Positions 32,024 through 34,014 of a stretch of 38,718 nucleotides of DNA are shown here, in pieces. Each line of letters begins with the position of its first letter. Positions within the stretch are counted from its first letter, which is position 1. The DNA is taken from positions 1 to 38,718 of the forward strand of contig CANGUP010000008.1 in the NCBI GenBank assembly GCA_947457105.1, given 5' to 3'. The notes beneath the pieces are model-generated. The model was not told the DNA's origin. It was given only the letters and a program-made list of their open reading frames with translations, and did no database searches. This DNA is from Flavobacteriaceae bacterium (GTDB lineage Bacteria > Bacteroidota > Bacteroidia > Flavobacteriales > Flavobacteriaceae). The position numbers and the translations under genes were made by a program.

Positions 32024-33034
32024 CTATCTATTCAAAATAATCGCTGCTTCTTTGGCAAAATAAGTTGAAATTAAACTTGCTCCGGCACGTTTTATGCACA
32101 TTAATTGTTCCATCATAATTTTGTCGTGGTCTAACCAACCTCTTTCAGAAGCGGCTTTAATCATGGCATATTCGCCCGAAACGTGAAAAACGGTAACTGG
32201 AACGTTCACTGCATTTTTGACTTCGCGAACGATATCAAGATAGGCAATTCCTGGTTTTACCATAACCATATCGGCGCCTTCTTCAACATCCATTAGTGCT
32301 TCTTTGATGGCTTCGATGCGGTTCGCGTAATCCATTTGGTAGGTTTTTTTGTCTTTTGGTACTTCGACAGGCTCAGCATCCAAAGTAGTGCCTTTTGGCG
32401 CAGAATCTAAAGCATCACGAAAAGGTCCGTAAAATGCAGATGCATATTTAGCAGAATAACTCATAATTCCAACATTTGAAAATCCTGCAGCGTCTAATCC
32501 TTGTCTTAAACGTAAAACGCGACCGTCCATCATATCGCTTGGCGCAACGAAATCGGCTCCTGCTTTTGCATGAGAAACCGCCATTTTTACTAAAGCATCA
32601 TTGGTTGCATCGTTTGCAACATCACCATTTTCTATAATTCCGTCGTGACCGTAAATGGAGTATGGATCTAAGGCAACATCTGGCATAACAATCATTTCTG
32701 GACAAGCCGATTTAATAGATTTGATGGCTCTTTGCATCAATCCGTCAGGATTCCAAGCTTCTTTTCCGGTGTTGTCTTTTAGTGATTCGTCAACTTTCAC
32801 ATAGATGTTTACAGCGCGAATTCCTAATGCAAAAAGTTCTTTTACTTCTTCAACAGTCAAATCGATTGAACGACGGTAAATACCAACCATTGAAGGAATT
32901 TCAACTTTTACGTTTTCGCCTTCTGCAATGAACATAGGAAACATAAAATCGCTTGGACTTAATGTGGTTTCGCGAACTAAACTTCTAATCGATTCGTTAA
33001 CGCGTAATCTTCTGCCTCTTTGTAATGGGAACAT
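32024..33034 (-). CDS. hemB: Delta-aminolevulinic acid dehydratase (porphobilinogen synthase)
   Basis: A 336-residue TIM-barrel enzyme condensing two 5-aminolevulinates to porphobilinogen. Visible are RRLRVNESIRSLVRET (N-terminus), DVALDPYSIYGHDG, VAPSDMMDGRV, SYSAKYASAFYGPFRDA, and MVKPGIAYLD with the Schiff-base Lys. DVALDP lacks the Cys triad of zinc enzymes, so this is the Asp-type, Mg-dependent class. Odd point: between FRDALDSAP and KKTYQMDYANR there is an extra GTTLDAEPVEVPKD-like loop, most of it encoded by a repeat element on the opposite strand (32358-32392). The frame is kept and all catalytic residues remain. Confidence 0.96.
   Translation of the reverse strand: MFPLQRGRRLRVNESIRSLVRETTLSPSDFMFPMFIAEGENVKVEIPSMVGIYRRSIDLTVEEVKELFALGIRAVNIYVKVDESLKDNTGKEAWNPDGLMQRAIKSIKSACPEMIVMPDVALDPYSIYGHDGIIENGDVANDATNDALVKMAVSHAKAGADFVAPSDMMDGRVLRLRQGLDAAGFSNVGIMSYSAKYASAFYGPFRDALDSAPKGTTLDAEPVEVPKDKKTYQMDYANRIEAIKEALMDVEEGADMVMVKPGIAYLDIVREVKNAVNVPVTVFHVSGEYAMIKAASERGWLDHDKIMMEQLMCIKRAGASLISTYFAKEAAIILNR
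32358..32392 (+). repeat. Repeat element inside hemB
   Basis: Begins GGTACTTCGACAGGCTCAGC, then ATCCAAAGTAGTGCC. The ends TACTT and AAGTA are inverted repeats. Read on the hemB strand it encodes GTTLDAEPVEV. The same unit, in the other orientation relative to its host gene, lies in hemF at 33643-33679. Confidence 0.7.
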
Positions 33035-33090: not shown

Positions 33091-34014
33091 TTAAACCCAA
33101 TCAATTGGTGATTCTAATACTTTAATTAATTTTTCTTCTTCGCTTCCAACTTCAGGATGATGGTCATAATGCCATTGCACGTGTGGTGGTAATGACATCA
33201 AAATGGATTCAATTCTACCATTGGTTTTTAATCCAAATAACGTTCCTTTGTCGTGTACTAAATTGAATTCTACATAACGACCACGACGGATTTCTTGCCA
33301 AGTTCGTTGTGCTTCTTTATAAGTTAAGTCTTTTCTTTTTTCTACAATTGGAACGTAAGCTTCTAGAAAACTGTTTCCGACTTCGGTTACAAAATTGTAC
33401 CAATCTTCCATTTTCATTTCCTCGGTTTCTTTGCAGTAATCGAAGAATAATCCGCCAAGTCCACGAGCTTCATTTCTGTGAGCATTCCAAAAATAAGCAT
33501 CGCATTGTTTTTTATATTTTGGATAAAATTCTGGATTATGTTTGTCGCAAGCAGTTTTGCAAGTTTGATGAAAGTGTTTTCCGTCTTCTTCAAATAAATA
33601 ATAAGGAGTTAAATCTTGTCCGCCACCAAACCAACTATTGATTACTTTCCGTGAGCCTGTGCTGAGCTCTGTCGAAGTATCGTACATTTCAAAATATCTC
33701 CAATTGGCATGAACCGTTGGAACCATAGGACTTTTTGGATGAATTACTAAACTCAATCCGCAAGCAAAGAAATCGGCTTCTCCAACGTTGAATAATTTCT
33801 GCATAGAATCAGGTAATTTTCCGTGAACTGCCGAAATATTTACGCCACCTTTTTCAAAAACTTTTCCGTTTTCAATAACTCGTGTTTGTCCGCCGCCTCC
33901 TTCTGGTCGTTCCCAAATATCTTCACGGAATTTGGCAACACCATCCACTTCTTCTAATTTGGAAGTGATTTGGTTTTGAAGGTTTTGGATGTACTGGTAG
34001 AATTTATTTTTCAT
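33091..34014 (-). CDS. hemF: Oxygen-dependent coproporphyrinogen III oxidase
   Basis: 307 residues. It oxidatively decarboxylates coproporphyrinogen III to protoporphyrinogen IX with O2, in the cytoplasm. Motifs: FREDIWERPEGGGGQTRV, GVNISAVHG, SLVIHPKSPMVPTVHANWRYFEMY, WFGGGQDLTPYY, RNEARGLGGLFFDY, and RRGRYVEFNLVHDKGTLFGL near the C-terminus. ATG 34014 (MKNKFYQYIQNLQ) is chosen; 13 upstream codons are non-conserved and run into the preceding gene's tail. Odd point: DTSTELSTGSRKVI between EMYD and NSWFGGG is about 8 residues longer than in E. coli HemF and is encoded by a repeat shared with hemB. Confidence 0.95.
   Translation of the reverse strand: MKNKFYQYIQNLQNQITSKLEEVDGVAKFREDIWERPEGGGGQTRVIENGKVFEKGGVNISAVHGKLPDSMQKLFNVGEADFFACGLSLVIHPKSPMVPTVHANWRYFEMYDTSTELSTGSRKVINSWFGGGQDLTPYYLFEEDGKHFHQTCKTACDKHNPEFYPKYKKQCDAYFWNAHRNEARGLGGLFFDYCKETEEMKMEDWYNFVTEVGNSFLEAYVPIVEKRKDLTYKEAQRTWQEIRRGRYVEFNLVHDKGTLFGLKTNGRIESILMSLPPHVQWHYDHHPEVGSEEEKLIKVLESPIDWV
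33643..33679 (-). repeat. Repeat element inside hemF
   Basis: On the hemF coding strand it reads TACTTCGACAGAGCTCAGCA, then CAGGCTCACGGAAAGTA. The ends TACTT and AAGTA are again inverted. It matches the hemB element (32358-32392) except for a one-base addition and a longer central part. It encodes the loop TSTELSTGSRKV. Confidence 0.7.

Follow-up and report, generated by a model that had tools for sequence, protein, structure and literature searches.

A REP-like repeat recurs in haem biosynthesis genes of Flavobacterium and may be spread by a GIY-YIG nuclease

Repetitive extragenic palindromic sequences (REPs) of the GTAG and CGTC superfamilies are short, many-copy palindromes, mostly intergenic and in some cases in frame within genes (PMC3733652). 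In the part of that paper available to us, the CGTC tag often reads TGTC, CGTC-type REPs have no known mobiliser, and REPs lie at about the same site of recB in two Xanthomonas species. The accessible text on RAYT genes describes in-frame REPs inside members of subclass 2.4, which is found in Bacteroidetes among others (PMC6006769). Rickettsia palindromic elements (RPEs) measure about 150 bp and reside in Rickettsia genes (PMC10969869, excerpted text). A 2025 survey of REPs covers two Flavobacterium species, and the terms nuclease and transposase are absent from its available portion (PMC12306157). A Moraxella gene table includes GIY-YIG, with no link to repeats made in the accessible part of the paper (PMC9465073).

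We analysed a 38,718-nt stretch of a Flavobacteriaceae genome (contig CANGUP010000008.1, hereafter the window). Its hemF gene (33091..34014, minus strand) encodes a 307-residue oxygen-dependent coproporphyrinogen oxidase, as indicated by its translation and a match to NCBIfam NF003727 (413.5 bits, cut-off 297); the closest named HemF loci are for the most part from Flavobacterium. A first-pass annotation had proposed that a repeat element with inverted ends TACTT...AAAGTA is inserted in frame at 33643..33679 (minus strand, TACTTCGACAGAGCTCAGCACAGGCTCACGGAAAGTA; plus strand, TACTTTCCGTGAGCCTGTGCTGAGCTCTGTCGAAGTA), in a loop longer than that of E. coli HemF. The loop is indeed longer, by eight residues than in two PDB relatives (the two listed among nine matches) and by seven than in most named relatives. 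The gene strand here codes for D-TSTELSTGSRK-VI, flanked by FEMY and NSWFGGG; ACTTCGACAGAGCTCAGCACAGGCTCACGGAAA specifies TSTELSTGSRK, after FEMYD and before VINSWFGGG. Residues 113–123 are predicted to lie between two strands in an AlphaFold2 model (mean pLDDT 62).

Comparison of empty and filled alleles showed that the inserted part approximates ACTTCGAC-NNN-GCTCAGNACAGG plus a few bases. The proposed inverted ends are not the ends of an element: AAAGTA is host coding sequence, namely the K-V codons of hemF, and is found in empty alleles too (e.g., L182). The repeat unit that stands in frame is ACTTCGACAGAGCTCAGCACAGG (33656..33678, minus strand), whose hairpin partners covary among hemF copies, and its 21-nt form is TTCGACAGAGCTCAGCACAGG (33656–33676). 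The core, CTTCGACAGAGCTCAGCA, occurs once in the window at up to three mismatches (0 expected from 100 shuffles) and is followed by ACAGG. R-K-V recurs after hemF inserts, with differing codons.

The suggestion of a near-identical core in hemB held as well. The hemB gene (32024..33034, minus strand) encodes a porphobilinogen synthase of 336 residues (translation; NCBIfam NF006762, 476.6 bits, cut-off 297), and contains a repeat copy at 32360..32387 on the plus strand; this copy is antisense to hemB, in whose frame it is read as LDAEPVEV. Its core CTTCGACAGGCTCAGC (32362–32377) is one base short of the hemF core. The HemB loop is 10–11 residues longer than in two PDB relatives, and just 5–6 longer than in most congeners.

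Both copies belong to a dispersed family. The pattern TTCGACN{1,3}GCTCAG matched 46 copies in the 3.02-Mb genome of the window, and the reversed pattern, used as a control, matched none. Since the AGA-loop version seen in hemF occurs only there in this genome, no local donor for the hemF copy is visible. Across the genus, 229 of 299 genomes (the window's own counted) hold the family, with a maximum of 161 copies per genome. The typical copy is NCTTCGACAAGCTCAGN'NTGACA, in which N is complementary to N'. Of 177 unique copies, 161 have a base next to the core that is complementary to its partner, where shuffling gives a mean of 48; in the window's genome taken by itself the figures are 33 of 41 and 17. 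TGACA follows the core in most copies of that genome, reading TGTCA on the other strand. By calculation the core hairpin is weak (−1.1 to −1.3 kcal/mol, shuffles folding as well), and it lacks the stable stem of about 8–9 bp of CGTC-type REPs. Units span 21–44 nt. A longer nested form, approximately CGATACTTCGACTNNGCTCAGNACAGGCNNGCTCAGTNTGACA, occurs in several genomes (L186, L187, L191, L200) at places outside sense ORFs; like the hemF copy, it starts with GATAC and has an ACAGG tail.

ACAGG-tailed units number 35 in the 299 genomes, with 14 in hemF. Sixteen of the 21 outside hemF were read: 11 lie in no ORF of at least 100 codons, four overlap putative antisense ORFs and one is in frame, preceded by a GAT codon, in L204. 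The host gene is a putative dapD, to judge by a motif. Separately, locus L116 of the window's genome (C95:7141-7524) holds a tandem array of seven same-direction copies, spaced 57–71 bp apart in a GAAGAAAG-rich tract. A variant copy, CTCGACTGCGCTCGG, lies at L126:4045 (contig C166, same genome) in a protein that by eye resembles D-2-hydroxyacid dehydrogenase; it is outside the 46.

As the first-pass annotation had surmised, the core is repeated genome-wide and mostly outside genes: of the 46, 30 are outside any ORF of at least 100 codons, six are in ORFs judged spurious and one is in a 189-residue ORF without a family match. The other nine stand in frame in recognised families, namely hemF, hemB, aroA, gltX, prmC, a BioF-like enzyme, an esterase, a GSCFA protein and a GNAT protein. 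Net additions relative to the best PDB relative amount to 12 residues in aroA, eight in prmC, five in the esterase and four in gltX. The core can be read through without a stop in five of six frames, four of which are used by genes of this genome, so an insertion of the right length can be tolerated in a permissive turn.

The family resembles the REPs of the partly available review (PMC3733652) in being short, palindromic, many-copy, mostly intergenic and occasionally in frame within genes. In one orientation it begins with TGTCA, which may correspond to the TGTC form of the CGTC tag; the hemF copy has ACAGG in place of TGACA. It differs from them in its weak, interrupted core hairpin in place of an 8–9-bp stem, and it carries no GTAG tag. 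The parallel with RPEs that had been drawn from the window also stands, in that repeats are inserted in frame in unrelated conserved genes (PMC10969869, as far as its accessible text goes). Unlike RPEs, of about 100–150 bp (about 150 bp as described there), the present units are about 21–44 nt long, use several reading frames rather than encoding one conserved peptide, and occur in a genus of free-living type. The notion of an RPE-like single copy in hemF stands as regards an in-frame repeat, but not as regards a single event: insertion there is recurrent, and elsewhere unrelated repeats occupy the same loop.

This recurrence was seen first in loop length. Among 80 hemF loci of named genomes, 68 lack the extra residues and their DNA, as the first-pass annotation had expected of relatives, their loops being seven residues shorter than that of the window; of the 12 longer loops, nine contain a TTCGAC-type core and three CCCCTTCGGGG-like DNA. 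These frequencies are not estimates, because relatives were ranked by similarity to an insert-bearing query and further loci were picked because their hemF length was unusual or their hemB held a repeat. When the loop was cut out of the hemF DNA and a tree built of 116 loci, the empty or filled state had to switch at least 26 times, with starred branches forcing 16 of these changes. Filled rows cluster no more than chance would have it (shuffled labels need a mean of 27.5 changes, and 138 of 500 shuffles were as low), and the rows nearest to the window, L006 and L143, are empty. In grouping the rows by insert type, L066 was counted as TTCGAC despite having GGGG-type DNA; the presence/absence counts are unaffected. 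To judge from the tree, inheritance of the hemF insert does not follow clades.

The inserts also vary. Units in hemF are single, double (L166, L167) or triple (L168) across the genus; as the 21-nt ACAGG-tailed unit equals seven codons, such doubling or tripling, seen at three loci, is frame-neutral. In 22 insert-bearing rows the inner hairpin pair is T-A in 19 and C-G in three, and the outer pair is A-T in ten, C-G in five, G-C in three and unpaired in four. All TTCGAC-type inserts seen in hemF share one orientation and one frame. This speaks against independent entry, since insertion free of constraint would not produce such uniformity; either their ends are set by microhomology or the rest are filtered out by the protein. 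In some species the same loop is occupied by unrelated CCCC-GGGG (CCCCTTCGGGG-type) repeats. These number 23, 25, 7, 7 and 5 copies in five carrier or neighbour genomes and just one or two in three genomes (the control also giving one in two of these); they are absent from the window's genome, and a GIY-YIG profile found no match near them at 20 loci.

HemF also has extra residues at four other sites in relatives: after RPxGGGG (L172, P0073), at ENG-PEGSG-V (L171, L173, L175), at CKATDD-SSDSEQAKQ (L177, P0036, P0052) and at CDKH-SRSFGT-D (L170). Metagenome-assembled genomes titled Lentimicrobium, Chitinophaga and Chryseobacterium (L007, L032, L033, L035) hold hemF genes 85–88% identical to that of the window, from either mis-binned or mislabelled contigs or gene transfer.

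In hemB, the repeat fills the loop at 15 of 96 loci, some of which were chosen because they held it, with at least 11 changes on the tree, eight of them forced. Here filling is somewhat clustered (shuffled mean, 14.2 changes; 4 of 500 shuffles as low). Filled alleles of the EADV type are set apart from empty GATGTCGAAGT alleles by some 15 nt, which turn a pre-existing single arm into a full repeat; this looks like templated extension rather than the movement of a fixed unit. We treat this as a lead, since the corresponding microhomology match was seen in just seven of 81 empty alleles, exact in three. Taken over both genes, it is likely that the repeat has inserted at these hemF and hemB positions over and over, in many independent events within the genus. 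The hemB genes beside hemF (L006–L085) are themselves of two sorts, about 63–77% or 86–97% identical to HemB of the window, and this pattern suggests gene replacement.

We then related the repeat to candidate nuclease genes. A GIY-YIG protein of the window's genome (L376:467-781) matched PF01541 with 69.5 bits (cut-off 22.6), and contig C166 of that genome holds a repeat cluster around the gene of a 104-residue GIY-YIG nuclease. Among 79 of the GIY-YIG loci in 20 copy-rich genomes, 12 that share a sequence type had 2–10 copies each, and the other 67 had six strict copies in 210.6 kb; at 11 GIY-YIG loci of copy-free genomes no repeat copy was found. A profile (A2) built solely from GIY-YIG proteins seen to be repeat-flanked had matches in 71 genomes at E<1e-43. 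Every one of the 30 top-scoring A2 loci (one per genome, 20 of the genomes having had no part in defining the type) had copies within 1.5 kb, 27 of them on both sides, a number that an ORF-based rule reproduced. Strict copies reached 1.46 per kb at these loci, against 0.0117 per kb genome-wide in the same genomes. In the 40 loci that rank next, one or more copies were seen at 30, two or more at 25 and copies on both sides at 19; two more (L266, L270) had none within 1.5 kb. Overall, copies lie within 1.5 kb at 60 of the 72 loci of this subfamily, and 12 have none nearby.

When 149 GIY-YIG proteins were placed on a tree, one branch of 80 rows (support 93, just below the star level) took in every one of the 57 loci with at least two copies, and none of the 69 rows outside it had two or more. 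The flanking trait needs 12 changes on this tree versus a shuffled mean of 45.8. Genomes with the subfamily hold more of the repeat (median 22 copies, n=71, versus 3 without, n=228; p=4e-11), and the subfamily is present in 13 of 21 genomes with a hemF insert versus 31 of 126 without (p=0.0013). Among the hemF matches listed, genomes with an insert have a median of 31 copies (n=21) versus 9 without (n=126; p=6e-6). These p values are uncorrected for kinship and genome size; in most of the 126 genomes the absence of an insert was deduced from the length of hemF, and four GGGG-type genomes were left out. Paired tests on the hemF tree point in the same direction, with no significance, the 5–7 supported pairs being too few for that. 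The match between repeat and nuclease is incomplete: 31 of 60 genomes with at least 30 copies have no GIY-YIG match at E<1e-43, and four of 70 copy-free genomes have one.

Such loci are like REPtrons, as far as the available parts of the two sources describe these (PMC6006769, PMC3733652), in that a nuclease-type gene has repeats on both sides and in both orientations, with further copies elsewhere. They are unlike them in that the flanked gene encodes a GIY-YIG protein and not a Y1 HUH enzyme, RAYT loci here being without the repeat. CGTC-type REPs being without a known mobiliser, a repeat-wrapped nuclease gene in dozens of genomes is a concrete candidate. GIY-YIG homing endonucleases have a GIY-YIG catalytic domain, and the nuclease gene is tightly linked to the spreading sequence. 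The present system is like them in its catalytic domain and in the close tie between a nuclease gene and a spreading sequence; it is unlike them in that a tiny, many-site repeat spreads, not the nuclease gene or an intron at one site.

The reading that we prefer, to which we assign about an even chance, is that the HemF loop derives from a REP-like repeat that recurs at hemF and hemB and is spread by GIY-YIG-driven copying of the homing type. The GIY-YIG nuclease would nick or cut DNA, and repair would copy the repeat in from another copy, joined through short microhomology. Candidate microhomologies are a GAT codon just ahead of the insert, shared by hemF and the dapD-like gene, and, in a subset of empty hemB alleles, GTCGAAGT. 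Which insertions survive would then depend on permissive turns and open frames. Dispersal of the repeat is, we predict, probably of this GIY-YIG homing type. The broader claim, that Flavobacterium has a second REP system in which GIY-YIG copies palindromes by homing-like repair and haem genes are recurrently hit, we put a shade below even. If it is true, surface turns of haem enzymes keep being rewritten by this system. The hemF and hemB loops probably record a selfish palindrome repeatedly entering the same places in essential enzymes, and with them the question raised by RPEs, how protein-resident palindromes spread and survive, becomes testable in a free-living, cultivable genus.

Replication errors alone might instead have spread the repeat, through hairpin-prone template switching at short matches, with the GIY-YIG gene a passenger or repair factor. 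The gain of about 15 nt that completes the half-present repeat of hemB GATGTCGAAGT alleles would fit such errors, as would the slippage-like look of the tandem hemF units and the lack of the GIY-YIG subfamily in about half of the copy-rich genomes. They leave unexplained why copies crowd at one GIY-YIG branch and not at other GIY-YIG or RAYT genes, and we regard this explanation as unlikely. It is still less probable that one or a few old hemF insertions were exchanged as alleles by recombination and often lost. The TSTELSTG reading, orientation and frame common to many inserts would suit such exchange, and so would the AGA loop in 10 far-apart hemF rows. However, the test of flank similarity gave no support: within 60 nt of the loop it was 0.048 for the 10 AGA-type rows and 0.061 for the 22 insert-bearing rows (23 of 100 draws as high), against 0.056 at random. 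Hairpin subtypes, moreover, differ with their partners matched, and unrelated repeats fill the same loop.

RAYT was the mobiliser that we favoured first, for the Y1 genes beside hemF, and movement by RAYT or another Y1 transposase would follow classical REPs. The window's genome has a RAYT (93 bits, cut-off 80), and at 12 of 80 named loci hemF is followed downstream, on its own strand, by a Y1/IS200-like gene; by coordinates this arrangement holds in at least 16 genomes of the genus (e.g., L167:1743-2201, L168, L161, L010, L015). Yet the regions around 30 RAYT-model matches in 20 genomes (97.7 kb; 12 matches above cut-off, seven in copy-free genomes) contained one repeat copy, which led us to reject RAYT. 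The copy-free genome G112 holds RAYTs above the cut-off, and a Y1 gene beside hemF coincides with a TTCGAC insert at just two of nine named loci; transposition of this kind is thus very improbable. We give hardly any credence to retention of the insert for a benefit of the longer loop or hairpin to HemF or its mRNA. The share of ACAGG-tailed units found in hemF (14/35) and the recurrence of R-K-V through different codons speak for a benefit, but the insert is missing from most relatives, including the nearest L006 and L143, and loop length, sequence and unit number vary.

The first-pass annotation had held protein-resident copies in Flavobacterium haem genes to be undescribed. Within the open-licence literature of PubMed Central this is supported, and we found no description there of the GIY-YIG link or the recurrent hemF site; intragenic palindromes as such are known. 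Six core strings of the repeat were not found in open-licence PubMed Central papers, nor was any such paper found that has GIY-YIG together with "repetitive extragenic palindromic". Among the papers listed, GIY-YIG is also mentioned in a fungal mitogenome study and a restriction-enzyme model.

At L372, L379 and other GIY-YIG loci, the surrounding copies point in alternate directions and are regularly spaced (by about 38 and 67 bp in L372), resembling BIME arrays. A more distant GIY-YIG type also lies near copies, at G282:C14:9084-10018 (match C14:9510-9791) and in L279 (G186 C45), where MKGYMYIL is found. Because this type also has copies nearby, the link between the repeat and GIY-YIG proteins may be wider than the main subfamily.
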